DNA of 48,129 bases from an uncultured Anaeromyxobacter sp. GTDB taxonomy: Bacteria > Myxococcota > Myxococcia > Myxococcales > Anaeromyxobacteraceae. This document shows positions 23,997 to 48,129 of the stretch, piece after piece (within the stretch, counting starts at the first letter, position 1; every line of letters starts with the position of its first letter). Location: positions 1-48,129 of the forward strand of contig CAIVAR010000033.1 of the NCBI GenBank assembly GCA_903904005.1. The letters are read 5' to 3'. Position numbers and translations under genes: made by a program. The notes under the pieces were generated by a model, which worked only from the letters and a program-made list of their open reading frames with translations, was not told the origin of the DNA and did no database searches.

Positions 23997-24293
23997 ATGA
24001 AGACCGCCGGGATCCGGGACCTCAAGGCCCACCTGAGCGCCTACCTCAGGGACGTGGCGCGCGGCGATGTCGTGCTCGTCACCGACCGGGGAGAGGTGGT
24101 CGCGGAGCTGCGGCCGCCCGGCACCGGCGAGAGAAGCCTCCCGCCCGCGGAGCCCCGGTACTGGCGGCTCGTCGAGCGGGGCCTCCTGCGTCCGGCGGCG
24201 GCCCCGTCCTCCGTCGACTGGAGCGCGGCACCGCGCGTCCGGCTCCGCGGCGGGACGTCGCAGGAGTTGCTCGACGCGGAGCGTGGCGAGTGA
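23997..24293 (+). CDS. Phd/YefM-family antitoxin
   Basis: 98 residues. The N-terminus (KTAGIRDLKAHLSAYLRDV) and the following DVVLVTDRGEVVAEL match the DNA-binding domain of the Phd/YefM family, which represses its own operon and neutralises the partner toxin. The C-terminal part (from PPGTGERS) is the expected toxin-binding tail. ATG 23997 has no ribosome binding site and lies at the predicted transcript start. It overlaps the toxin gene in GTGA. Pairing of a Phd-type antitoxin with a PIN toxin is well known. Confidence 0.88.
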   Translation: MKTAGIRDLKAHLSAYLRDVARGDVVLVTDRGEVVAELRPPGTGERSLPPAEPRYWRLVERGLLRPAAAPSSVDWSAAPRVRLRGGTSQELLDAERGE

Positions 24294-24712
24294 GGCGGCG
24301 GTACGTGGAGACGAGCGCGCTCCTGCGGGTGCTGCTCGACGGGGACGAGGCGCTGCAGCCCGGGCTGTCCGGCGAAGGTCTCGTCACGTCGGCCCTGACC
24401 TTCGTCGAGGCCGCGAGGGCCATCTCGCGTGCCCGGCGCGAGGAGCGGCTCGATGCCCGGGAGGCCCGTGAAGCGGAGCGGCAGCTGGCCGCCTTCGAGC
24501 GATCCTGCGACGTCGTCTCCCTGGGCGAAGAGGTGCTTCGGCGCGCGCGCGAGGACTTCCCCGTGGAGCCCGTCCGCTCGCTCGACGCGATCCACCTGGC
24601 TTCGATCTGCGTGCTCGACGACGAACTCGGCGCCCTGGACGTCGCGAGCACGGACGACCGGATCCGCGGCAATGCGGCGGCGCTGGGGTTCGTGGTGATC
24701 CCGACGATGTGA
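24290..24712 (+). CDS. vapC: PIN-domain ribonuclease toxin (VapC-like)
   Basis: 140 residues. PIN domain with the first acidic residue in YVETSALLRVLL (Glu instead of the more common Asp), the second in TFVEAARAI, and the last pair in RSLDAIHLASI and STDDRI. These acidic residues bind Mg or Mn and cut RNA, usually tRNA or rRNA, in VapC toxins. GTG 24290 overlaps the antitoxin stop. Target not predictable. The helical arrangement and length are normal for VapC. Confidence 0.88.
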   Translation: MRRRYVETSALLRVLLDGDEALQPGLSGEGLVTSALTFVEAARAISRARREERLDAREAREAERQLAAFERSCDVVSLGEEVLRRAREDFPVEPVRSLDAIHLASICVLDDELGALDVASTDDRIRGNAAALGFVVIPTM

Positions 24713-25925: not shown

Positions 25926-26295
25926 TCGGGCCGCTGGCCCGCAGTGAACTTCCCGTCTACGCCTTCGTCGCCTGGGCAGCGGCCTTCCGGGCCGGGGTCT
26001 CGGCGAGGACGCCTACCGCAGCGCCAGCCACCGCGCCGCCGACCGCGAAGAGGGCGCCGACGCCGGTGACGCCCATCACCATCCCGAAGATGATCAGGGC
26101 CTGGACCGCGAAGGTCGGGGCCACCGGCGTTCCGAAGATCCCACCGGCCAGCATGACGCCCGCGTAGCCACCGTAGAGCAGCGCAGGGAGCAGGGCGATG
26201 GCGAGGAAGAGGGCCAGTCCGACTGCGGCGCCGACGATGCTGGGGGTCTTGCGGTTCATGGTGTTCTCCTGGGTTCCGTCGAGGTTGGTAGACGG
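25926..26295. repeat. Duplicated segment, intact copy
   Basis: About 370 bases matching 28975-29226 at over 90 percent outside two deletions. It contains the whole 100-residue membrane protein gene, its ribosome binding site and about 35 bases of upstream sequence. Confidence 0.9.
25957..26259 (-). CDS. Small membrane protein (two or three helices), intact copy
   Basis: 100 residues. It starts MNRKTPSIVGAAVGLALFL and has hydrophobic helices with GGYAGVMLAGGIFG, APTFAVQALIIFGMVMGV and a Gly/Ala-rich helix GAVAGAAVGVLAE, ending in a basic, Ala-rich tail. A strong GGAGAA ribosome binding site precedes ATG 26259. Not recognised; the Gly-zipper-like helices could oligomerise. A second, damaged copy lies at 28827-29189, where the two deletions remove the second helix and shift the frame. 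Confidence 0.7.
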   Translation of the reverse strand: MNRKTPSIVGAAVGLALFLAIALLPALLYGGYAGVMLAGGIFGTPVAPTFAVQALIIFGMVMGVTGVGALFAVGGAVAGAAVGVLAETPARKAAAQATKA

Positions 26296-28974: not shown

Positions 28975-29189
28975 TCGGGCCTCTGGCCCGCAGTGAACTT
29001 CTCGGCTACGCCTTCGTCGCCTGGGCAGCAGCCTTCCGGGCCGGGGACGCCCATCACCATCCCGAAGATCCCACCGGCCAGCATGACGCCCGCGTAGCCA
29101 CCGTAGAGCAGCGCGGGGAGCAGGGCGATGGCGAGGAAGAGGGCCAGTCCGACTGAGGCGCCGACGATGCTGGGGGTCTTGCGGTTCAT
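28827..29189 (-). pseudogene. Damaged second copy of the small membrane protein
   Basis: Identical to the first 42 residues of the gene at 25957-26259 apart from A12S (MNRKTPSIVGASVGLALFL), then two deletions remove TPVAPTFAVQALIIFG, in frame, and most of the C-terminal helix, with a frame change, after MVMGV. The shifted frame continues to 28827 with unrelated sequence (120 residues in all). The first deletion lies between short GATCTTCGG-like direct repeats. The ribosome binding site and start are intact, so a truncated product may still be made. Confidence 0.75.
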
Positions 29190-29226
29190 GGTGTTCTCCT
29201 GGGTTCCGTCGAAGGTTGGTAGACGG
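28975..29226. repeat. Duplicated segment, second copy with two deletions
   Basis: Copy of 25926-26295, shortened to about 252 bases by two internal deletions of 48 and about 70 bases. Outside them only a few substitutions are seen, including one extra A in the upstream region (GAAGGTTGGTAGACGG). Confidence 0.9.
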
Positions 29227-29670: not shown

Positions 29671-29798
29671 AATGCCGAGGGGCCAGGTCCTCGCGTGCGG
29701 GTCCGCGCCGGGGCCTGCAGTCCCCGGCGGGTCTGCACGGAAATGACTGCCCTTGGCGGATTTGGATGCTGGTAGGGTGAAAGGGATTGGAGAACCCC

Positions 29799-30434
29799 TT
29801 GCGAAACCTGCTCCTCACGACCGCCGTCCTCTTGACCCTCGCCGCGCCCGCCGCCGCGCAGACCCCGTCACCGGAGCCCGGCAGGCTGTTCCAGGCCGCG
29901 CCTCCGGCACCGACCTGGAACAACGTGGCCAGGGTGAACCTGGGCGTCGGGTTCTACAATTCCGGTTGGTACAACTGCTACACGGTCTGGGGCTACGCCT
30001 GCACGAGCGGTACCTACTCCAGTTACATCCCGTTCCTCGTGGGCCCGCAGGTCGACTTCCATCTGGGCGGCATGCACAACGTCAGCGTGGGGCTCACGGT
30101 GGGCATCGGTACCGCCACGCTCACCTATTACGATCAGTTCAACGCGCTCCTGACGCAGACCGCCAACGCGACCCTCTGGGAGCCGACGGTCGACTACGTC
30201 GCCAAGTTCGGATCGCCGACCAACGATGTGGTGAGCCGTTTTCGCGTGGGTGGGGCCATGTACATCGGTCCCAACTCCCGGCTGGGTGGTGCGGGCCGTA
30301 TCGGCGCAGGGGCGTCGCTGCTCAACACGAGGCGCCTCGGGGTGGGGCTCGACCTGGTGTTCGAGGGGGGCGGCTACGACGGACGGTGGATCGGAGGGCT
30401 ACAGCTCCTGGTCTCCCCCGAGATCCACTTCTAG
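29799..30434 (+). CDS. Predicted outer-membrane beta-barrel protein
   Basis: 211 residues from TTG 29799, picked for GGAG 6 bases upstream; an alternative TTG at 29787 adds 4. Signal peptide RNLLLTTAVLLTLAAPAAAQ. The mature part is made of alternating strands with aromatic girdles (RVNLGVGFYNSGWYNCYTVW, PQVDFHLGGMHNVSVGL, LGVGLDLVFEGGGYDG) and ends with the terminal aromatic signal PEIHF, typical of outer-membrane proteins inserted by BamA. About eight strands are likely. Function unknown. It converges with the acid-resistance operon and overlaps its last gene by 4 bases. Confidence 0.75.
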   Translation: MRNLLLTTAVLLTLAAPAAAQTPSPEPGRLFQAAPPAPTWNNVARVNLGVGFYNSGWYNCYTVWGYACTSGTYSSYIPFLVGPQVDFHLGGMHNVSVGLTVGIGTATLTYYDQFNALLTQTANATLWEPTVDYVAKFGSPTNDVVSRFRVGGAMYIGPNSRLGGAGRIGAGASLLNTRRLGVGLDLVFEGGGYDGRWIGGLQLLVSPEIHF

Positions 30435-31462
30435 GCGACCGGCCAGGCGTCGATCTCGGCCAGGACCTCGGCGGCCAGCGCGACCAGGGAGGGTTCGTAG
30501 CGCCTGCGCAGCGGGACGAAGTCGGCCCAGGCCCGATCCCGGTCCGGGGACACCTTGGCCCCCGCGGCGGCCAGCCGGTCGAGCGCGACGTCGAACTGGG
30601 CTCGGCTGACGAGACACCCCGGAGCAGTGCCCACCTGCACCCTCATCGACGAGGCCACCGCCGCGAGCGCCCGCTCCCCGGTCTCCAGGCAGATCAGCGC
30701 ATGTCCCCGCGGAGGGGCCCCGAGCGCGGCAATCGCCAGTGCGGCGGTGTCGAGGACCACGGCGCTGGCGTTCACCCAGGACTCGCCTGGCCAGTAGGAA
30801 GGGGCAATGGTCAGGCCGGGCGAGAGCGACTGGGCGGCGCCGAGGGTGCGAAACCATGCCTCCCAGTCGTACCAGTGCTCGCCGAGTGCCTCGGGCCGCC
30901 CGGATCGCAGGTACCATTCGAGCAGCGCGACCCCCGTGGCCGGATGCCCCGTCCGAACGTAGACGGCGTCCACCCGGTCCGTTCGCGCCTGGATGATGCC
31001 CAGGTAGCCCGGCACGAAGGACAGGATGTAGACGATCACGAAGAGCCCCATGCCTCCCTCGGCGATGGAGATCACCTGTCCGATGGTGCCCGGGGGCGTC
31101 TTGTAGCCGAGCGTGCTGAGCGCCGAACCGCTCGTGAGGAGGGCGTCCAGCCACGTGGATGAGGCGCCGGCGGCGCGGTAGAGGAACGCGAACGCCAGGA
31201 TCCCGTGCAGGTACCAGGCCCCCATCAGTACGAAGAGGGAGACCGGCCAGAACCAGAGGAGCCGACGGTCGAACTGGCCAGGGCTCCGGCCGCGTCCCAG
31301 GAAGTTGCGGAACAGGAACCAGGTCGACCGGGCCGTGAAGTCCCGGATCGGGTCCCGGCGGTGCCGCTCGAGCAGGGTCACCGTGATGAGCGAGCGGAAG
31401 AGGAGCACGAGAAGCCAGAGGCCGACCAGCACCTCGAGGATCTGAACGATCCGCGCGCTCAA
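30431..31462 (-). CDS. Two-TM ion-channel-like membrane protein
   Basis: 343 residues from TTG 31462. Hydrophobic N-terminal segments lead to a pore-like element: ALLTSGSALSTLGYKTP, whose TLGY resembles the TVGYGD filter of K+ channels, followed by a helix GMGLFVIVYILSFVPGYLGI. Charged cytoplasmic sequence fills the rest. It lacks the full GYGD filter, so ion selectivity is uncertain. The TTG overlaps the previous stop by 4 bases. As last gene of the glutamate acid-resistance operon it could adjust membrane potential in acid; that is inference. Confidence 0.6.
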   Translation of the reverse strand: MSARIVQILEVLVGLWLLVLLFRSLITVTLLERHRRDPIRDFTARSTWFLFRNFLGRGRSPGQFDRRLLWFWPVSLFVLMGAWYLHGILAFAFLYRAAGASSTWLDALLTSGSALSTLGYKTPPGTIGQVISIAEGGMGLFVIVYILSFVPGYLGIIQARTDRVDAVYVRTGHPATGVALLEWYLRSGRPEALGEHWYDWEAWFRTLGAAQSLSPGLTIAPSYWPGESWVNASAVVLDTAALAIAALGAPPRGHALICLETGERALAAVASSMRVQVGTAPGCLVSRAQFDVALDRLAAAGAKVSPDRDRAWADFVPLRRRYEPSLVALAAEVLAEIDAWPVA

Positions 31463-31701
31463 GGCGTCGCCTTCCCCGCGACCCGGGTCGCCTCGAACTC
31501 CCCGCACCACCAGTCCGGGAGCACCCGCGGCCACGCCACCCCGCCCGCGCTCCAGGTGTCGGGATCGACGCTCGAGGCCCCCAGCAGGGCCGGGGGATTG
31601 CGGCGGCAGGCACCGGCTCTACCGGCGGCGCCAGCGAAGAAGCGGCATTCGCCGCAGCGGGAGGCGAGGTCGGGCACCGGGGCTCCCGTCCGGCTGATCA
31701 A
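31459..31701 (-). CDS. Small Cys-rich protein of the acid-resistance operon
   Basis: 80 residues from TTG 31701. The cysteine pattern is CGECRFF, CRRNPP and WWCGEF, with conserved Trp-Pro between, resembling small zinc-ribbon-like or redox proteins found with varied metabolic genes; I cannot assign a function. The TTG overlaps the glutaminase stop by 4 bases and its own stop overlaps the next gene by 4, so it is tightly coupled to both. Confidence 0.6.
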
Positions 31702-32639
31702 GCCTTGCGAGCGAAGAGGTTCAGGCCGAACTGCTCGGAGAGCGCCTGTGCCGCCAGCTGGCCGCGCACGCTGTTCCCGAACTCGTCGAGCGGTGGGGAG
31801 TAGGCGCCGATGGCCAGCTTCCCGGGGACCACGGCCAGGATTCCCCCGCCGACGCCGCTCTTGCCCGGCAGGCCGACCTTGTACATCCAGTCGCCGGTCG
31901 AGTCGTAGAGCCCGCTCATGCACATCTCGGCCAGGATCTTCGGCACGTTGCTCGACTGCACGACCTGCTTTCCGGTTCGCGGGTTGACCCCGCCGTTGGC
32001 GAGCGTCGCGCCCATCGTCGCCAGGTCTGCAGCGGTGATGTTGACCGAGCACTGCCGGGTGTAGACGTCGGTTGCCTCCATCGGGTCGGAGTACATGTAG
32101 CCGTAGCTCTGCAGCAGCCAGGCGATGCCCCGGTTGTGCTGGTTCGTGTCGGCTTCGGACTTGTAGATCACCTCGTTCACGGTCAGCGGCCGCCCTGCGA
32201 AATCGCCGTACGTGGAGATGATCTGGGCCCACCGGTCGTCCTTCGACTTCGCGGCGACGAGGCTGGTCGTGGCGATGGCCCCGGCGTTCACGAAGGGGTT
32301 CTGCGGCTTCCCCTTGTGCAACTCGATGGCCATCACCGAGTTGAACGGCTCCCCGGTCGGATCGGCCCCGATCTTCTGGCGAAGGGCGGCGGGCCCGATC
32401 TGGTCGAGGACACGCGCCAGCGTGAAGACCTTGCTGATCGACTCGATGGCGAACTCCTGCCGGGAGTCACCCGCCTCGATCACGGTGCCGTCCGCGAGCA
32501 CCACCGCCAGCCCGAAGAGCCGGGAAGGTACCTGGGCAAGCGCCGGGATGTAGTCCGCGTTCTTGCCGTCCTTCACGCCGGAGAAGCTGGCGATGGTGGC
32601 GTTCACGGCCTTCTGGAGGGAATCCTTGTCGATGGTCAT
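31698..32639 (-). CDS. glsA: Glutaminase (Ser/Lys beta-lactamase-like type)
   Basis: 313 residues, standard for the glutaminase A/YbaS family, which hydrolyses glutamine to glutamate and ammonia. Catalytic Ser-x-x-Lys is in [10 protein letters not shown], with [31 protein letters not shown] and [12 protein letters not shown] completing the active site, the last containing a KSGVGGGI motif. In E. coli YbaS ammonia release supports acid resistance; the same role is inferred from its position between the antiporter and the channel. ATG 32639 follows the antiporter by 33 bases and has GAGGAGACGAG upstream. Confidence 0.95.
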
Positions 32640-32672
32640 CTCGTCTCCTCGTGGGCAATCGTGGCGGACATC

Positions 32673-34232
32673 TCAGGTCTTCGCGGCGACACCCGCAGCC
32701 GGGGGCGACTTGGCCGCCGCGCTGGCTGCGGCCTCGGCATCCAGGTCCTGCAGCGCCGCCGAATAGCGATCCGACTCCTGCTTGGGCACGATCTGCCAGG
32801 AAGGCTTCCGGAAGTGGAAGAAGAGGAAGGCCGGCGCCGCCGTGACCACCAGGCCCGCCACCAGCATCCCGACGTAGATGGCCGGCGGCAGCATCTTGAA
32901 CTGGGACGGCGGCAGGAATCCGAGCAGGAGCGCCAGCACCGACGAAAGGATTCCCAGGATCGACCAGAAGTGGATGGCGGGCGCGCGGTAGCCGCGCTTC
33001 ACGTTCGGCTGCGTCTTGCGGAGCTTCATCGCGGCCGCGAACATGAAGACGTAGACGATGAGGTACATCTGGACGGCGAGCGCGCCCAGCATCCAGAAGG
33101 CGCCGGAGACGTCCGGGACGACCACGTAGAGAAGCGCGAGCAACGAGACCAGCACGGCCTGGAGCACCAGGATGTTGGCCTGGATTCCCTGCTTGTTGGT
33201 CTTCTGGAACCACGGGGGGAGCGACCCGGCCTTGCCCACGAAGAGGAGGCCCACCGAGGGGCCGGCGGTCCAGGCGAGCACGCCGCCCAGGGCACCGAAG
33301 ACGAGCAGCAGGGCCATGATCTTGATGGCCCAGCTCATGTGGAAGGCCTGGAAGAAGTCAGCGTAGGCCTGCATCACGCCGGCGGTGAGGCTGGTGGAGT
33401 CGGCTGGCACGACGAAGGAGATGGCCAGGGTCGGCGGGACGAAGATGAGGACGATGAGGATCGCCGCCACGAGGAGGCTCCTCGGCACGTCCCTCTGTGG
33501 GTTCTTGAGCTCGCGGACGTGGACGGCGTTCATCTCGATGCCGGCGAAGGCCAGGAAGTTGCCGACCACGAGCACGAGGCCGGCCGCGCCGCCCTCGAAT
33601 CGCTGCCAGAAGTCGAGATGGAGCTTCTGGCTCCCGGCCGTGACCACGGCCGTCGAGCTGAAGACATCGGGGATGAGCGCCGAGAGCGTCATGGGCTGCG
33701 CCGACTTGCGCCCCACCGCGAGCCAGACCACCCCGAGGACGATGAGCAGGGCGGCCGGGAAGAGGGTCCCCAGGATCATGAACCACGAGCTGAGCTTGGA
33801 GACCGCGTTCATCCCCTTCAGTGCCACGAAGGTGGAGATCCAGTAGAGGACCACGATGACCACGGCGGTGAAGACGCCGCTCTTCGCGAGTTCCGGGTGG
33901 AACATGTACGCCAAGGTGCTGGCTGCGAAGGCGAGCGCGGTGGGGTACCAGGTCACCACCTCGAGCCACAGGAACCACATGACGAAGAAGCCCCACTTCT
34001 CGCCGTAGGCCTGCTTCACCCAGCCGTAGATGCCACCGTTCCAGCCGGTGCCCAGCTCCGCCGCGACCAGCGAGACCGGGATGAAGAACACCAGCGCCGG
34101 GACGAGGTACAGGAACACGCTGCCGAGCCCGTAGACCGCCATGCCGGGGAGGGAGCGAACGCTCGCCACCGCGGCCACCATCAGGAAGGCCAGCGTCAGC
34201 CAGCTCATCGCCTTGTTCTGGTTCGTGCTCAT
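32673..34232 (-). CDS. gadC: APC-family glutamate/GABA-type antiporter (GadC-like)
   Basis: 519 residues with 12 predicted helices. It begins MSTNQNKAMSWLTLAFLMVA; FFIPVSLVAAELGTGWNGGIYGW is the TM2 segment typical of amino-acid antiporters, GNFLAFAGIEMNAVHVREL lies in the TM6 region (substrate-binding Gly-rich and Glu-Met-Asn). The C-terminal 55 residues are soluble, as in GadC, where this tail plugs the channel at neutral pH. It follows gadB by 18 bases. Glutamate-for-GABA exchange is inferred from the family and from the flanking genes. Confidence 0.88.
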   Translation of the reverse strand: MSTNQNKAMSWLTLAFLMVAAVASVRSLPGMAVYGLGSVFLYLVPALVFFIPVSLVAAELGTGWNGGIYGWVKQAYGEKWGFFVMWFLWLEVVTWYPTALAFAASTLAYMFHPELAKSGVFTAVVIVVLYWISTFVALKGMNAVSKLSSWFMILGTLFPAALLIVLGVVWLAVGRKSAQPMTLSALIPDVFSSTAVVTAGSQKLHLDFWQRFEGGAAGLVLVVGNFLAFAGIEMNAVHVRELKNPQRDVPRSLLVAAILIVLIFVPPTLAISFVVPADSTSLTAGVMQAYADFFQAFHMSWAIKIMALLLVFGALGGVLAWTAGPSVGLLFVGKAGSLPPWFQKTNKQGIQANILVLQAVLVSLLALLYVVVPDVSGAFWMLGALAVQMYLIVYVFMFAAAMKLRKTQPNVKRGYRAPAIHFWSILGILSSVLALLLGFLPPSQFKMLPPAIYVGMLVAGLVVTAAPAFLFFHFRKPSWQIVPKQESDRYSAALQDLDAEAAASAAAKSPPAAGVAAKT

Positions 34233-34250
34233 GGATCGTTGCCCTCGGGG

Positions 34251-35654
34251 CTAGCCGTGGTGGAAGCCGGTGCTGGTGGATGCGGGTGCCGTCCCGGCAA
34301 CCCCGGCCTTGAGCTCGTCGAGCGCCATGCGGAAGTCCCGGACGAGGAGGGACGCGAAGTCCATCTCGAAGCCCCGCCGGCACATGACGCGCATCACCGT
34401 GATGTCGGAGGCTGCGTCGGTCAGGGCGAAGGCGGGGACCTGCCAGCCGCGCAGGCGGAGCCGCTCCGACAGCTGGTAGAGCGTGTACCCCGGACTCACT
34501 CCATCCCGGATCTTGAAGGTGACCGCGGGAATGCCGACCCGGGGATTCCCGTCGTGCAGGAACTCGAAGGGGCCGAGCGGCGCGAGCTGCCCGTGGAGCC
34601 ACTGGGCAACCTGGTAGATGGCCGTCTGGACCTTCGTGTAGCCGTCCCGGCCCAGGCGGAGGAATTCATAGTACTGCGAGATCACCTGCCCGGCCGGGCG
34701 GGAGAAGTTGATGGCCATCGTCCCGACCTGGCCGCCCAGGTAGTCGACCTTGAAGATCAGGTCCTCGGGCAGGTCGGCGGCCTCGCGCCACACGACCCAG
34801 CCGCAGCCCAGCGGGGCGAGACCGTACTTGTGCCCGGAGGCGCTGATCGACTTCACGCGCGGGAGCCGGAAGTCCCAGAGCAGGTCCGGCGTCATGAACG
34901 GTGCGAGGAAGCCGCCGCTCGCGCCGTCGACGTGCATGTCGATGTCGAGCCCCTTCGCCTTCTGCAGCTTGTCCAGCGCTTCCTGCATCGGGAGCGGGAA
35001 CTCGTAGTTGCCGGTGTAGGTCACGCCGAGCGTGGGAACGACGCCGATCGTGTTCTCGTCGCAGGCCTCGATCATCCGCTTCGGGTCCATGAAGTAGCGC
35101 CCGTGCTCCATGGGGATCTGCCGGATCTCCACGTCCCAGTACCGGGCGAACTTGAGCCAGCAGACCTGAACCGGGCCGCAGACGAAATTGGGCTTGTCCA
35201 CCGACTTTCGCAGCGCCTTTCGCTTCGCGCGCCAGCGCCACTTCATGGCCATCCCACCCAGCATGCAGGCCTCGCTGGAGCCGATGGTGTTGGTGCCGGT
35301 CGCCTGGCCACCCTTCTGGCGTGGGGCGTTCCAGAGGTCCGCCATCATGTTGACGCACTTCATGTCGATCGCGGCCGACTGGGGATACTCCTCCTTGTCG
35401 ATCCAGTTCTTGTCGATGCAGACGTCCATGAGCTTCCGGACGTTCGGCTCGTCCCAGGTCTGGGTGAAGGTCGCCAGGTTCTGGCGGGCGTTTCCGTCGA
35501 GGAGAAGCTCGTCGAAGACGATCTGGTAGGCGACGTCCTCTCGCATCTCGTCGGCGGGGAAGTGGTGGGCCGGCGCGATCCGGGACATGGCCGCCGAGCC
35601 AAACCGCGAGTCGAGGATGGAGGGGACGAGCTTGCTCTGCTTGCGCTTGGCCAT
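34251..35654 (-). CDS. gadB: Glutamate decarboxylase
   Basis: 467 residues, one more than E. coli GadB. Pyridoxal-phosphate enzyme that turns glutamate into GABA while consuming a proton. The N-terminus has [18 protein letters not shown]; the PLP lysine is in [13 protein letters not shown], and [12 protein letters not shown] and [13 protein letters not shown] complete the active site. The tail ends with GFHHG, aligning with the FKHT end of E. coli GadB, whose penultimate histidine closes the active site at neutral pH, so similar pH control is likely. ATG 35654 is preceded by GGGAG. It forms an operon with the antiporter and glutaminase. Confidence 0.97.
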
Positions 35655-35676
35655 TTGGGACTCCCTGGGTTGGAGG

Positions 35677-37167
35677 TCAGAAGTTGAATTGCACGTTGGT
35701 CTGGCCGCGCCAGGCATCACCGGTGGAGGCGTCGACGGCCTTGCGGAAGCCGTAGAGTCCTTCCACGCCGACGAGCAGCCGGCTCCACGGACGCCAGGCC
35801 AGGTTCAGCGAGGCGTACTGCGTCTGCTGGAATCCCGTGCTTCCCAGCGAGGCCTGGTAGGAGGAGTCGTTCATGGTCAGGAAACCGTAGCTGGCCGTGG
35901 ACGACCACTCCGGTGCCCACCGGTGGGTGTAGCCGGCGAAGACGCCGAGGATGGGCAGCGCGGTGAGCGCCCCGCCTGCGGCGATCGCGGCATCGAGCCC
36001 TCCGCCTCCCGTGTCGTTGAAGTAGGCCGCTACTCCCTGGCCGCCCGCCACGCCGGCGGAGAGGAAGTCGCCCCCCCAGAGGTTCAGCCCGGCGGTGAGG
36101 TTCAACCCCCAACCGAAGACCGTCTGGGTGGAGCCATCGGTCGCGCTCTGGATGCCGATCCCCCGGAGGATGGTCGCCAGCTGGACGTGGCCGTGCTTTC
36201 CCTCGAGCCGCAGCTGCGCGCCCACGTCGGGCGAAACGTTGCGGGGAACCAGCGCCGCCGGAGAGACCTGGGCGCTGGGGAACTCGACCGAGACCTTGAA
36301 GAAGACCTGACGGTCCTCGTCGCGGTGCAGGAGGAGCCCGTACGACACCATGGCGTGCCGGTAGAAGGGAAGGGCGTTCGGGCCCTCGTAGTCGAGCGTC
36401 GCCGGGAACGAGTCGACGTCGGTGAAGAGCGAGTCGGAGAAGCCCACGAGCAGGTTCCCGGCCTGCGCGTAGAAGTAGCGAAGGTGGTAGTTGAAGGTGG
36501 CCTGCGGCTGGGAGAAGTCGTTGTTGTAGACGATGCGCAGCTGTCCGAGCGGGCTCGGCATGCGGAACTGGAAGTTGATGTCCGACTCGTTCGCGGTGAA
36601 GGCTACCTGGGCTTGGCTGTCGTAGAAGGGCTGCCCGCTCACCGGGATCGCCGCGGTCACCATCCAGGTCGGCGAGAAGGCCTTGGAGCTGACGGTGAGA
36701 ACCGTCGAGGCGCTGCCGCCCATCTCGAAGTCGACTTCGGTTCCCTGGAAGCGGACGTACCCCTTCTCGACCGGCGTGATGGGGACGTTGTCGATGCGCG
36801 GCGTGAGCTTCTGGGCCGGGGAACGGGAGTTGCGGTTCACCACGAAGGACGGTTGGGTCGGGGTCGTCGGGGCGGCCTCGGCACCCGGCCTGGCGCCTTC
36901 GCCCTTCGCCAGCTCCTGATCCACGGTCGCGGCGTTCTTCTTCTCGAGCGCCGAGATCTTCGCGCTCTGCTCGGCCGTGGCCTTCTGGAGCGACTCGACC
37001 TGGGCCTTGAGCTGGGCGACATCGTCGCCGGGGGACTGGGCGCGAGAGGCGAGGGGCGAGGCGAGGACCAGGGCCGCCAGGAACGCCGAGCAAAAAGGTC
37101 GGTTCCAGCGGAAGGTCACACGGAGTGAGGTGTCTCGGGTTGGCGGCGTCCGTGGAATGAAGTTCAA
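35677..37167 (-). CDS. DcaP-like outer-membrane channel protein
   Basis: 496 residues from TTG 37167, chosen for GGGAG 5 bases upstream; ATG 37191 adds 8 and GTG 37119 would give a shorter signal peptide. After the signal ([19 protein letters not shown]) comes a coiled coil ([20 protein letters not shown]), as in trimeric DcaP porins, then beta-strands ([15 protein letters not shown] and others) ending with the outer-membrane signature VQFNF. DcaP-type channels take up dicarboxylates and other small acids. Its place upstream of gadB suggests entry of glutamate or glutamine through the outer membrane; this is inference. Confidence 0.8.
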
Positions 37168-37487: not shown

Positions 37488-39218
37488 ATGCTCATCGGTG
37501 CCGAAGCGGCCGTCCTTGGGCGAGAGGAAGGTCGCGCTGGCCGCTTCCTTGGCCGCTCGTGGATCGCGGTCCTGTCGGCGATCCTCGCTGCGCAGGTGGC
37601 CCGGGCGGACGCGGTCCCGCCCACCGCCTTCGATTCCCCCGACTTCCTGCCGAACGACTCCCGGCTCAATCCGTGGGTGAGCCCGCTTCGTTCGTGCGGG
37701 GGCCCTCCGGGCGGATGCAACGTCACCGTGCACATGGGCTTCATCAACACGGACTACGCGTGTACCATCACCCCGAGTTCCGGCGCCGTGGCGGAGCGGG
37801 ACCAGACGCTCACGCCCGCGACCGACGTGACCCGGAACGTCCTGGGGTGGATCGACGGCGCCGCGTCCCCCGCCTCGGTGAGGATCCTGTTCGGCGGCGG
37901 CCGCGACTCGGAGGCGTCGATCCGGGACCTGCTCCCGAACACCACGGGGATCGCCGAGGTCGAGAAGGGGAAGCACGGGAAGCGCTGGCGCAACCCCAGG
38001 ACCCACGCCAAGGTCCTGCAGGTGGACGATGGCGGGGGCCGCTTCGTCACGACCCACGGGTCGCTCAACCTCCAGACGGTCGGGCTCACCTGCAAGGCCA
38101 ACGACACGCTCCGATTCGTCGAGCGCGCGCCGAACCTCTACGCCTACTTCCTCGCGCTGGCCGAGGCGGCCGGTTCCGGAAGCGGGAAGGGTCGGTTCCC
38201 GGGGCGGAGCGGGACCAAGGACTCGAGCGGGACCGGCCTCCCGCCCGTGCGGATCGGCGGCTATCGGGTCTGGTTCTATGCCGGGAGGGGAAACGAATTC
38301 GTCGGTGGCGTCGGGGGGGCCGACCAGGAGGCCTGGCCGACCTACCTGAACCCGCCCTTGCCCGGGCAGCATGCGCCCGGCTCCGTCAACTGGTTCGACG
38401 CCGTCATCGTCGACGCCGCCCGGCAACTCCGGCAGGGGCGAACCGTCCGGCTGTCGGTCGCCATGTTCGAGATCGGCCAGGAGGCTGCGTTCGTCGACAA
38501 CCTCTGGAAGTTCGTCGGCGAGGGGTTCGCCGGGATGGTCACCGAGGACCGCACGTCCGACGCCCGGGTCGCCTCGCCCTTCCCGGGGAACCTGGACGTC
38601 CGGTTTCTCTGGCAGTTCCAGTCCCTGCGGGACGAGGGATCGACGACCTGGGCCAACCTGAACCGGACGCCCAGCCTGGCGCGGAGCGACCCGGCCACGG
38701 GCGCCACCTATCGCCTCGCGTCGGCGGGGATCTGGACCCCTCGCGACGGCTCGGGAAACCCCGTCCACCCGACCACGCCCCAGGACATGCACGTGAAGTT
38801 CATGCTGATGGACGTGGTGGGGCACGAGTCGGAACGGCGCATCTACGTGACCTCGTCGAATCTCGACACGCCCGAGCTGGGCAGCGGCAAGCTCTGGCAG
38901 GTGGGGACGGTGGTCGGGGAGTACCCCGGCACGGGCACCTGGAGCGGCACCCGCGCCAGCGGCCCCAGCCTGTGGCAGGCCTACCAGAAGTACTTCGACA
39001 TGCTCTGGACGGGGCGGGATGGCCAGCCCGCCGCCGGTCAAGTCGCGTTCTTCGAACGGATCCGGGCCGAGCACCTGCGCGGCGGCATGAACTGGATCGA
39101 GACCCTCCCGTCCGGAAACGCGCGTGACCCCTCCATCGCCGGTGAGGGAATCGACGCCTTCTTCTTCCCGGTGCCCCTGACGGCAACGCCGGCTGCCGGG
39201 GGAGGTCCGGCGAGATGA
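37488..39218 (+). CDS. Secreted phospholipase D-superfamily protein
   Basis: 576 residues. A signal peptide (IAVLSAILAAQVARA) follows a long N-region. Two HKD sites are present: the first has HAKVLQVDD followed by THGSLNLQT, the second has MHVKFMLMD followed by TSSNLD, as in the HxKxxxxD-GSxN pattern of the PLD superfamily, which includes phospholipases, nucleases and related phosphodiesterases. The first site keeps His and Lys but has DD a little early. Substrate is unknown. ATG 37488 has no ribosome binding site and TACGGT lies 6 bases before it, suggesting a leaderless mRNA. It overlaps the next gene by 4 bases (ATGA). Confidence 0.8.
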   Translation: MLIGAEAAVLGREEGRAGRFLGRSWIAVLSAILAAQVARADAVPPTAFDSPDFLPNDSRLNPWVSPLRSCGGPPGGCNVTVHMGFINTDYACTITPSSGAVAERDQTLTPATDVTRNVLGWIDGAASPASVRILFGGGRDSEASIRDLLPNTTGIAEVEKGKHGKRWRNPRTHAKVLQVDDGGGRFVTTHGSLNLQTVGLTCKANDTLRFVERAPNLYAYFLALAEAAGSGSGKGRFPGRSGTKDSSGTGLPPVRIGGYRVWFYAGRGNEFVGGVGGADQEAWPTYLNPPLPGQHAPGSVNWFDAVIVDAARQLRQGRTVRLSVAMFEIGQEAAFVDNLWKFVGEGFAGMVTEDRTSDARVASPFPGNLDVRFLWQFQSLRDEGSTTWANLNRTPSLARSDPATGATYRLASAGIWTPRDGSGNPVHPTTPQDMHVKFMLMDVVGHESERRIYVTSSNLDTPELGSGKLWQVGTVVGEYPGTGTWSGTRASGPSLWQAYQKYFDMLWTGRDGQPAAGQVAFFERIRAEHLRGGMNWIETLPSGNARDPSIAGEGIDAFFFPVPLTATPAAGGGPAR

Positions 39219-39764: not shown

Positions 39765-41222
39765 TCAACTCGAGCCGCGCCTCCGTCGTTCGATGTAGGC
39801 GAGGGGAAGCACGAGCAGCACGAACATCGTACCGACGATGAAGGCCCAGTACCGAAGGGTCGCGTCGAACCCGGCCGCGCGGACCGCGGCGGACGGGACG
39901 AAGCCGGCGCCGATCCCCACCAGGCAGGAGAGCGTGCCGATGCCGCCGACGATCCAGGCGCCCACGATTCCGCCCGGAACCGTGTAGGCCGTCGGCGATG
40001 GCCGGTCGCGCCGCTTGAGCCGGAGGAATGTCGCGAACTCCATCATGTACAGGACGAGCCGCATCTGGGTGGTGACGCTCAGCGAGAGGAAGAAGGCCGA
40101 TCCCACGGTGGGCAGGAAGAGGACGGGAAGGGCCAGGAGCGAGGCGAGCACCGCCTGGACGAGGAGGGCTCCCGTCGGAACGTCCCTGGCGTTGGTGCGT
40201 CCGAACACTTCCGGGATCAGCTGGAGGCGCGCCATGGCCATCATCGCCCGTGCCGTGGACAGGGTCCAGACGACGCCCACGCTGAGCGCGCCGATGCAGA
40301 GGGCCGCGGCCAGCAGCTTGGCGACCCAGGGGACACCCAGCGCGCCGAAGCCGCGCTGGAAGGCCATGAGCGTGCCCGCCACGAGCGCGTTCTCGCCGGA
40401 AGGCAGGAGGACCGCGACCGAGAGCGAACTCGCAACGTAGAGGATGGTGACCAGGACGGCGGTGATCAGCACGCCACGGGGGAAGGTCCGCTCCGGCCGA
40501 TCGACGTGTCGGACCAGCGGGGCGGTCACGTCCACGCCCATCAGCGAGAGCATGACCGCGGCGAGGATCATGAGCTGGTCCAGCGAACGGTCGGGGAGGA
40601 GGGAGCGCGGATTCCAGGGCACCCCGGACGGCATCCCGCGCGCCAGCCACCACGCCGCGAGCCCCACGAGCACCGCGGCGGGGAGCAGGTTTCCGACCAC
40701 GAAGGTGACGGTGGTGAACCGCGACGAGTTGCGGACGCCTCCGAAGTTCGCGAGGGTGGTCAGCCAGATCCAGGCCAGGATGTTCGCGAAGATCCACCAC
40801 CGCGACTCGGCCAGGGGAGGGTGGAAGATGTAGGCGAGCGCAGATCCCATGAAGGCGAACAGGTAGGGCAGGAAGGGGAGGTTGGAGGCCCACTGCGCAA
40901 ACTGGGCGACCGCACCCAGTCGGGGGCCGAAGGCCTCGTCGACCCAGGCGAAGACCCCACCGTCCTTGTTCACGCGGGAGCCCAGCTCCGCCGCCACCAG
41001 CGCGGTCGGGACGAGGAAGAGCAGGCTGCCCAGCAGGAGGTAGGTGACGAGCGCCAGGCCGTCGGTCGCGAGGGAGGCGGTGTTGACGACGCTGAAGACC
41101 CCCGCGCTCGTCAGGAGGACGAGGGTCGACAGTCCGATCCGGTAAGGAGCTCCTGGCAATCGTCCTCCCGCCGGCGAGGTTGTCACGAACGCCGGCGCGG
41201 TGGCCAGTCCGCCAATGGCCAC
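39765..41222 (-). CDS. APC-family amino-acid antiporter, second copy in the window
   Basis: 485 residues with 12 predicted helices. The TM1-TM2 region is SAGVFSVVNTASLATDGLAL, FLVPTALVAAELGSRVNKDG and GGVFAWVDEAFG; it belongs to the amino-acid/polyamine antiporter branch near GadC, AdiC and CadB. It differs clearly from the gadC-like gene and has a short C-terminus without the plug. GTG 41222 is used; GTG 41186 is a possible shorter start. It stands alone on the minus strand, converging with the FUSC-like gene and divergent from the export operon. Confidence 0.85.
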   Translation of the reverse strand: MAIGGLATAPAFVTTSPAGGRLPGAPYRIGLSTLVLLTSAGVFSVVNTASLATDGLALVTYLLLGSLLFLVPTALVAAELGSRVNKDGGVFAWVDEAFGPRLGAVAQFAQWASNLPFLPYLFAFMGSALAYIFHPPLAESRWWIFANILAWIWLTTLANFGGVRNSSRFTTVTFVVGNLLPAAVLVGLAAWWLARGMPSGVPWNPRSLLPDRSLDQLMILAAVMLSLMGVDVTAPLVRHVDRPERTFPRGVLITAVLVTILYVASSLSVAVLLPSGENALVAGTLMAFQRGFGALGVPWVAKLLAAALCIGALSVGVVWTLSTARAMMAMARLQLIPEVFGRTNARDVPTGALLVQAVLASLLALPVLFLPTVGSAFFLSLSVTTQMRLVLYMMEFATFLRLKRRDRPSPTAYTVPGGIVGAWIVGGIGTLSCLVGIGAGFVPSAAVRAAGFDATLRYWAFIVGTMFVLLVLPLAYIERRRRGSS

Positions 41223-46698: not shown

Positions 46699-48075
46699 TC
46701 ACTTCTTGCCTTCGACGAAGCACGAATCCGACAACGTGTATGGATAGGTCGGACGGTCGTCGGCCATCCGACCAAGCCGGTGCCGCAAGCGCCCGAAGGC
46801 CCGGTAAACCAGCGGATAGGGCTGCCCGCTGAACCTGGTGAGAATTTCCAGCCAGGATCGCGGCGCTTCCTTGATGAAGCTCTCCATGCTCGTCGCGATG
46901 TCGTCCTCGCTCATCCCTGCGATCCCCGACGGTGCGCCGCCAAGCGGAGGCGTGACCTTGCAGGCCGCGAAGGACAGGACGTCGAAACCGCCGACCAGTG
47001 GGATCGTGCAGTCGAAACCGATCTTCGAGAGGTTCACCGGCGGCTTGTTTGCATTGCACATCGGCTCGAGCGGCAGGACGTTCTGGCCAGGCAGGATCAA
47101 CGTGTCCCGGCCCGGATCGAATCGCCATGCGAACGCCCACATGACGCGATCTGGATCGAAGATGTCGACGTCCTCGTCGAACACGTAAGCGATCTTCGGC
47201 AGCCACTGTCGGGAACAGGTGAGCATGATCCCCAGCGCCTGCTTGGCGTCGCCGCCGCCGACAGTCTTGATCCGGGCATAAGCAACATTGGTCGAGCCGT
47301 TGCCCGGAATGTAGACATCCAGCACCTGAATCCCAGCGCTTTTCAGCGCGGAGAAGATGTCGGCTTCGATGGTCGAATTCCAGACCGCCATGTCGGTACG
47401 ACCGGGGTGCAGCCCACCGATCGTCGCGTGCTGGTAGATTCCGCCCTTGCGGTACGTGATGCAATCGACCTTGAGGCGGCAGTTGCAGGGTAGACCGCCG
47501 CCGTAGGTGCCGGTGAACTCGCCGTAGGGCCCTTCGTCGAAGACCCAGCCTTCGGTGGTCATGATCCGACCCTCGATCACGATCTCCGCGTTGGCCGGCA
47601 CGGTGAGGTCGCTGGTCTCGCACTTGACCACCTTCGCCGGGGCCCCGTAGAAGCCGCCCAGCACGTCCCAGTCGTCGGTGTTCTGGACCGTGAACATCGA
47701 GGCAATCTTGTCGAGTGCGGGCCCGCCGATGACCACCGCCACCGGCATGTCGATCCCGCGAGCCTGGTATTTCCGGGCGTGGATCCGCGCCTTGTGGCTG
47801 TCATTGCGCATGTCGACGTTGGTCTCGTCCTTCGACCGGAACATCAGCCGGTAGATGCCCCAGTTGATCAGTCCGGTGTCCGGATCGCGCGACACCACGC
47901 TCGTGTCCTGGATGTAGGCATTGCCGTCGTGCTCGTGGTGCAGGAACAGCGGCAGCTTGGTCAGGTCGACGTCGCTGCCCTTCAGGATCTGAGCGATCCC
48001 CTCATTTCGTGAGGGCAAGTTGTTGAAATCCGGGCGGGAGGGGATCACGCTGCGACCCCGTGAGAACCCAACCAC
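46699..48075 (-). CDS. ubiD: UbiD-family decarboxylase, N-terminally short or frameshifted
   Basis: 458 residues from the first GTG (48075) after an in-frame stop; GTG 48048 is another possible start. It is related to aromatic or unsaturated acid decarboxylases that use prenylated FMN: SVVSRDPDTGLINWGIYRL, MPVAVVIGG, and the catalytic-region EGPYGEFTGTYGG with its acidic residues. Family members are usually about 490-500 residues with an N-terminal domain of about 100 before this region; here it is largely absent. A one-base change in the CCCC at 48056-48059 would join it to the open frame at 48045-48128. Substrate is not known. Confidence 0.88.
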   Translation of the reverse strand: MVGFSRGRSVIPSRPDFNNLPSRNEGIAQILKGSDVDLTKLPLFLHHEHDGNAYIQDTSVVSRDPDTGLINWGIYRLMFRSKDETNVDMRNDSHKARIHARKYQARGIDMPVAVVIGGPALDKIASMFTVQNTDDWDVLGGFYGAPAKVVKCETSDLTVPANAEIVIEGRIMTTEGWVFDEGPYGEFTGTYGGGLPCNCRLKVDCITYRKGGIYQHATIGGLHPGRTDMAVWNSTIEADIFSALKSAGIQVLDVYIPGNGSTNVAYARIKTVGGGDAKQALGIMLTCSRQWLPKIAYVFDEDVDIFDPDRVMWAFAWRFDPGRDTLILPGQNVLPLEPMCNANKPPVNLSKIGFDCTIPLVGGFDVLSFAACKVTPPLGGAPSGIAGMSEDDIATSMESFIKEAPRSWLEILTRFSGQPYPLVYRAFGRLRHRLGRMADDRPTYPYTLSDSCFVEGKK

Positions 48076-48128
48076 TCGACCGCGACCGGATCACGAAGCT
48101 CGTCTCCACCATCTTCTCCGAGGACCTG
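48045..48128 (-). other. C-terminal end of an upstream open frame, possibly the missing part of ubiD
   Basis: 27 codons (QVLGEDGGDELRDPVAVEWL to the stop) enter from beyond the window. The stop overlaps GTG 48048 of ubiD by GTGA. Either it is a separate coupled gene or, after a frameshift, the N-terminal part of UbiD. No similarity is certain at this length. Confidence 0.35.
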
Positions 48129-48129
48129 C

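Follow-up and report, generated by a model that had tools for sequence, protein, structure and literature searches.

Here, we found that the genome of an uncultured Anaeromyxobacter sp. (GCA_903904005.1, a 4.56-Mb assembly) carries a set of six co-oriented genes that looks like a genuine, enlarged version of the known glutamine/glutamate system and is headed by the gene of a DcaP-type outer-membrane porin. The set occupies positions 30431-37167, on the minus strand, of contig CAIVAR010000033.1, which was analysed at its entire length of 48,129 nt (the window). We consider it likely that these genes form a horizontally acquired acid-resistance operon of the AR2 plus AR2_Q type with its own way in through the outer membrane. 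Comparison with the sequences of other genomes gives good support to the porin part, which appears to reach past glutamate and to be wider than an earlier, sequence-only reading of this DNA had claimed.

The core of the set is, as judged from family profiles and solved relatives, a sound glutamine/glutamate system made up of a GadB-type decarboxylase, a GadC-like antiporter and a YbaS-type glutaminase, in agreement with what had been read from the letters. The decarboxylase (34251-35654, minus strand, 467 aa) passes the TIGR01788 equivalog cut-off with 634 bits against 380, shows about 72% identity with E. coli GadB over 448 aa and 52-56% identity with GadB of Myxococcaceae, and keeps the catalytic motif SASGHK with K276 as the PLP lysine. 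The C-terminal histidine to which a role in blocking the active site had been ascribed is indeed present: H466 aligns with E. coli H465, and the histidine is invariant in all six GadBs aligned, so that the same role is predicted here. The acidic N-terminal residues D2, D8 and E12 of E. coli GadB are replaced in the alignment by A, K and S, and acid-driven membrane recruitment in the E. coli manner may thus be missing. The predicted glutamate(glutamine)/GABA antiporter (32673-34232, minus strand, 519 aa) has NF053662 as its best NCBIfam family and misses both GadC equivalog cut-offs (589 < 640 for NF053662 and 463 < 650 for TIGR03813), for which reason we call it GadC-like; a search for solved relatives yielded E. 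coli GadC alone (4DJI/4DJK, E 2e-48). The glutaminase A of the acid (YbaS) type (31698-32639, minus strand, 313 aa) passes the NF009020 cut-off with 499 bits against 395 and has YbaS (1U60, E 4e-115) as its best solved relative. A second GadC-like APC permease (39765-41222, minus strand, NF053662 275 bits), possibly a member of the same island, lies 2.6 kb upstream of the operon with two divergent genes in between; apart from this permease and the operon antiporter, no AA_permease_2 protein turned up anywhere in the assembly.

All six open frames were confirmed, and the short gaps and overlaps described earlier are borne out. The porin and gadB genes are separated by 22 nt, gadB and gadC by 18 nt, gadC and glsA by 33 nt, and glsA and the following gene for a Cys-rich protein by 20 nt, whereas the Cys-rich gene and the last, channel-like gene overlap by 4 nt (TTGA), the TTG start of the latter at 31462 overlapping the stop codon of the former. 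A ribosome-site-like GGGAG, GAGG or GAGGAG precedes the porin gene (TTG at 37167), gadB, gadC, glsA and the Cys-rich gene (GTG at 31677). Scans for promoters and terminators, each a weak test, found no promoter-like site between the six genes and no terminator-like site better than chance, which lends weak support to a single transcript; together with the spacing, this makes co-transcription of the six genes a plausible prediction. An Rfam search of the window returned no RNA. Elsewhere in the window, we noted a divergent secreted-looking protein at 37488-39218 whose two HxK...D-like motifs (HAKVLQVDD, HVKFMLMDV) recall phospholipase D proteins, though it has no Pfam match, and two small neighbouring genes at 23997-24712 that, judged by eye alone, have the look of an antitoxin and a PIN-type toxin. 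A 162-nt repeat, 96% identical between its copies at 26121-26282 and 29051-29212, covers the start of a small hydrophobic minus-strand protein and has related copies in most genomes of the family.

The leading gene (35677-37167, minus strand) had been taken for a DcaP-like porin, and profile and fold comparisons lead us to the same identification. The protein just misses the gathering cut-off of the Pfam family DcaP (PF19577; E 3.8e-6, 26.6 bits against 27) and is therefore named DcaP-type. A profile built from 51 of its relatives matches the solved DcaP structure (PDB 6EUS) at E 3e-33. In the AF2 model of the monomer (mean pLDDT 83.6), a long, coiled-coil-like N-terminal helix, predicted at residues 46-88, is followed by a beta barrel, and this model aligns with 6EUS at Z 38.8 over 341 residues and 2.0 A, with about 17% identity on the structural alignment, compared to Z 25.1 for the next best fold, the general porins. 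DcaP porins form trimers with an N-terminal coiled coil and prefer anionic or carboxylic solutes (PMC12338516). The window porin thus resembles Acinetobacter DcaP in its predicted fold of N-terminal helix and C-terminal barrel, but is tied to amino-acid decarboxylase and deamidase genes instead of dicarboxylate catabolism. In a quick tree, it groups with gad-linked porins of Myxococcaceae (99% SH-aLRT), and partner types largely track the clades, on long branches and with deep joins that are unsure. A query with the porin against viral contigs and one with GadC against genome contigs returned no match.

Is the tie between a DcaP-type porin and amino-acid genes peculiar to this contig? A scan with a porin alignment, seeded with gad-linked porins only and applied to one genome per species, yielded a list of 80 named loci, ordered approximately by how similar their porins are to that of the window. 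Representative partner genes were named by NCBIfam and Pfam, and the others were assigned by tblastn to those representatives. Same-strand decarboxylase, antiporter or deamidase genes lie within 3.5 kb of the porin gene in 45 of the 62 first-listed loci (L095-L156), which come from many phyla, compared to 3 of the 18 last-listed ones (Fisher 3e-5, in a sample ordered by likeness to the window porin and uncorrected for kinship). Likewise, 97 of 296 genes within 3.5 kb of a porin match a partner class, against 25 of 245 genes farther away, again uncorrected for kinship. Among the 62 loci, the classes, which overlap, are represented by glsA (19 loci), gadC (11), gadB (6), a decarboxylase or antiporter of arginine/ornithine/lysine type (19) and aspartate/asparagine genes (10), with AdiA/AdiC/PotE, AspT/AspD, asparaginase II, aspartase and Dcu as partner families (NCBIfam, Pfam). 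Because the seed porins were all gad-linked, the choice of seed does not account for the arginine and aspartate links.

The sequence-only reading had made its case depend on the added genes recurring beside gadB elsewhere, and the porin does recur beside gad genes, in Myxococcaceae, Chitinophaga and Aureibacter. In Myxococcaceae, porins of about 43-44% identity lie directly ahead of gadC and glsA in rows of the order gadB-APC-porin-gadC-glsA or APC-porin-gadC-glsA, gadB thus being part of the same row in some; Chitinophaga has a row gadB-gadC-porin-glsA (L137, L141), and in Aureibacter the porin and gadB genes are 45 nt apart. DcaP-type porins were also seen in Kiritimatiellae and Verrucomicrobia MAGs (L099, L100, L103, L113), in rows of aspartate 4-decarboxylase, AspT and asparaginase or of Dcu, aspartase and asparaginase. 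A second DcaP-type gene of the window genome (L209, contig G000:C20, about 40.3-41.1 kb) stands in a row aspartase-asparaginase II-porin, adjoined by AspT on the opposite strand. Within the genus, glsA adjoins a DcaP-type porin in two sister genomes (L210, L212), and a short asparaginase match adjoins the porin in a third. No such partner genes occur within the 12 kb read around the nearest porin relative (L216, 51% identity), and the DcaP gene of Bacteroides finegoldii has no gad neighbours. The loci of GadC relatives in Legionella and Sphingomonadales and the loci in Plesiomonas and Parabacteroides, the last of which carries the published pair of gadC and a K+ channel, have no adjoining porin annotated as DcaP; the porin link is thus not universal. 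Taking these results together, we lean, if only somewhat, towards the view that DcaP-type porins are a dedicated outer-membrane part of decarboxylase/antiporter and glutaminase/asparaginase modules of glutamate, arginine and aspartate types in many phyla, each porin being tuned to its amino acid.

The two genes at the 3' end fare differently. The Cys-rich protein (31459-31677, minus strand), previously given as 80 residues, is corrected to 72 aa from the GTG start with its ribosome site; a length of 80 aa results only from a TTG that overlaps the glsA stop. Its four cysteines lie in the motif CGEC...ACRR...WWCGEF, it reaches no family at cut-off in Pfam (HIPIP, E 0.07), and, as 195 phylum genomes gave just two marginal matches and plasmids and phages no relative, it is an orphan within the data searched. 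The filter of K+ channels is TxGYG. The putative ion-channel-like membrane protein (30431-31462, minus strand) has the pore motif SALSTLGYKTP and a C-terminal tail of about 200 aa, so that the TLGY motif and the tight 3' placement noticed earlier stand; its identity as a channel is weak, with a match to Ion_trans_2 below the Pfam cut-off (E 0.003, 17.9 bits against 22.5) and a filter that reads T-L-G-Y-K, not T-x-G-Y-G. No relative was found in the 195 phylum genomes or in plasmids, no solved relative by sequence and, in a tblastn comparison with a Parabacteroides channel family, no similarity; the single-sequence AF2 model is unusable (pLDDT 44.7).

Do these two genes belong to the system? 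There is about an even chance that the functional unit consists of porin, gadB, gadC and glsA alone and that the last two genes are mere local passengers, which is compatible with the operon serving acid resistance. Neither gene has a relative beside gad genes in the data searched, nor a convincing one in the 195 phylum genomes, and their G+C content is higher (76% and 70.5%) than that of the first four genes (66-67.5%). Their tight spacing and the TTGA overlap argue against mere passengers, as do the K+-channel genes published beside gad or gls genes in Bacteroidetes and Yersinia ruckeri (PMC6250119, PMC8082179). By the same papers, a channel joined to gad genes is not the novelty for which it had been taken. 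The expanded operon proposed earlier thus stands in its operon reading and its porin part, but not in its last two genes, which are candidate members of the system.

Compared to the AR2 and AR2_Q systems of E. coli (gadBC and ybaS), the window operon shares GadB, the antiporter type and the YbaS/GlsA-type glutaminase, but has an antiporter under the GadC equivalog cut-off, is headed by the porin gene and ends with the Cys-rich orphan and the channel-like protein. The order gadB-gadC-glsA is also that of Brucella microti (gadB-gadC-glsA-hdeA; PMC6250119), although no hdeA was seen in the window operon. The Bacteroides GAD system (gadB, glsA, gadC and a K+ channel; PMC8082179, PMC6250119) likewise unites decarboxylase, glutaminase, antiporter and a channel-type membrane protein; it differs in gene order, no porin has been reported in it, and the channel-like protein of the window has the filter TLGYK. 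A further likeness is to the directly adjoining genes of the Myxococcus gadB-APC-porin-gadC-glsA clusters (L098, L151; porin 44%, GadC about 40% and GlsA 63% identical), which, unlike the window operon, contain an extra APC permease, have gadB upstream or elsewhere and show no channel or Cys-rich gene. What the window presents is thus, by sequence, a complete glutamine/glutamate gene set with its own porin gene at the head in a relative of Myxococcus, with acid resistance as its presumed function. Our search of the open-licence literature, which is not proof of novelty, found no paper linking DcaP porins with glutamate decarboxylase or amino-acid-dependent acid resistance; this points to the porin link as the apparently unreported part, next to a K+ channel that is already known beside gad genes.

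How might such an operon work? We propose that glutamate and glutamine would pass the outer membrane via the DcaP-type porin and be carried across the inner membrane by the GadC-like antiporter in exchange for GABA. The glutaminase would free NH3, which would bind H+, and GadB would decarboxylate glutamate and consume one further H+ in doing so, while GABA would leave via the antiporter and possibly also via the same porin. Movement of K+ through the channel-like protein may keep the charge in balance, a role already suggested for the K+ channels linked to gad genes in Bacteroidetes, and a part for the Cys-rich protein is conceivable as well. If the operon serves acid survival, as we presume, it would be expected to be induced by acid.

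The same genes could also form a nutritional operon for uptake and breakdown of glutamine and glutamate, with energy gained by decarboxylation, GABA as end product and acid survival as a side effect or none at all, a reading that we regard as rather unlikely. It would fit the occurrence of the same porin kind with aspartase, Dcu and asparaginase II (L103, L111, L209, L221), as in amino-acid feeding, and the service of known DcaP porins in growth on carboxylic acids (PMC12338516). Indeed, as many linked porins lie in nutritional-looking aspartate/asparagine or aspartase-Dcu clusters, the porin link alone is no proof of acid resistance. However, the combination of GadB with a GadC-like antiporter and a YbaS-type glutaminase is known from acid resistance (PMC6250119), the autoinhibitory histidine of GadB is retained, and the other frequent porin partners are of AdiA/AdiC type, likewise an acid-resistance set. 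The YbaS-type glutaminase and the C-terminal histidine are the acid-type marks of the operon itself, and acid resistance is its likeliest role, with the nutritional role as the main rival.

The operon looks acquired by horizontal transfer, because none of the 23 other genomes of the family has a gadB that passes the cut-off in a family search and the operon, glsA excepted, has no substantial DNA match there, while its flank is of the same genus. In the order, gadB over the cut-off was found in 16 genomes of one other family (Myxococcaceae, e.g. Myxococcus and Citreicoccus). The unequal identities of the operon genes suggest more than one source. That the contig or operon is a contaminant or an assembly artefact of the genome bin, as the missing gadB and DNA matches in the family might indicate, is highly improbable given that a genome of the same genus matches the left part of the contig at 86% identity over 9.5 kb, that DNA matches of 71-74% to the gene directly beside the operon (29787-30434) occur within the genus and that the operon does not stand out from its surroundings in codon GC3. 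The contig ends in an exact 141-nt repeat (47990-48129) that is also present on two further contigs of the assembly and is probably the reason why it stops there.

Work on amino-acid-dependent acid resistance mostly treats the decarboxylase and the inner-membrane antiporter. The recurrent porin suggests that crossing the outer membrane can be a step of its own, dedicated and open to selection; if this is true, classical acid-resistance models that begin at the inner membrane would miss the first step. It also suggests that acidic, amide and basic amino acids are likely substrates of a porin family that has been known chiefly as a carboxylate channel in Acinetobacter, and the neighbouring genes may provide a genomic rule for guessing the substrate of each porin.
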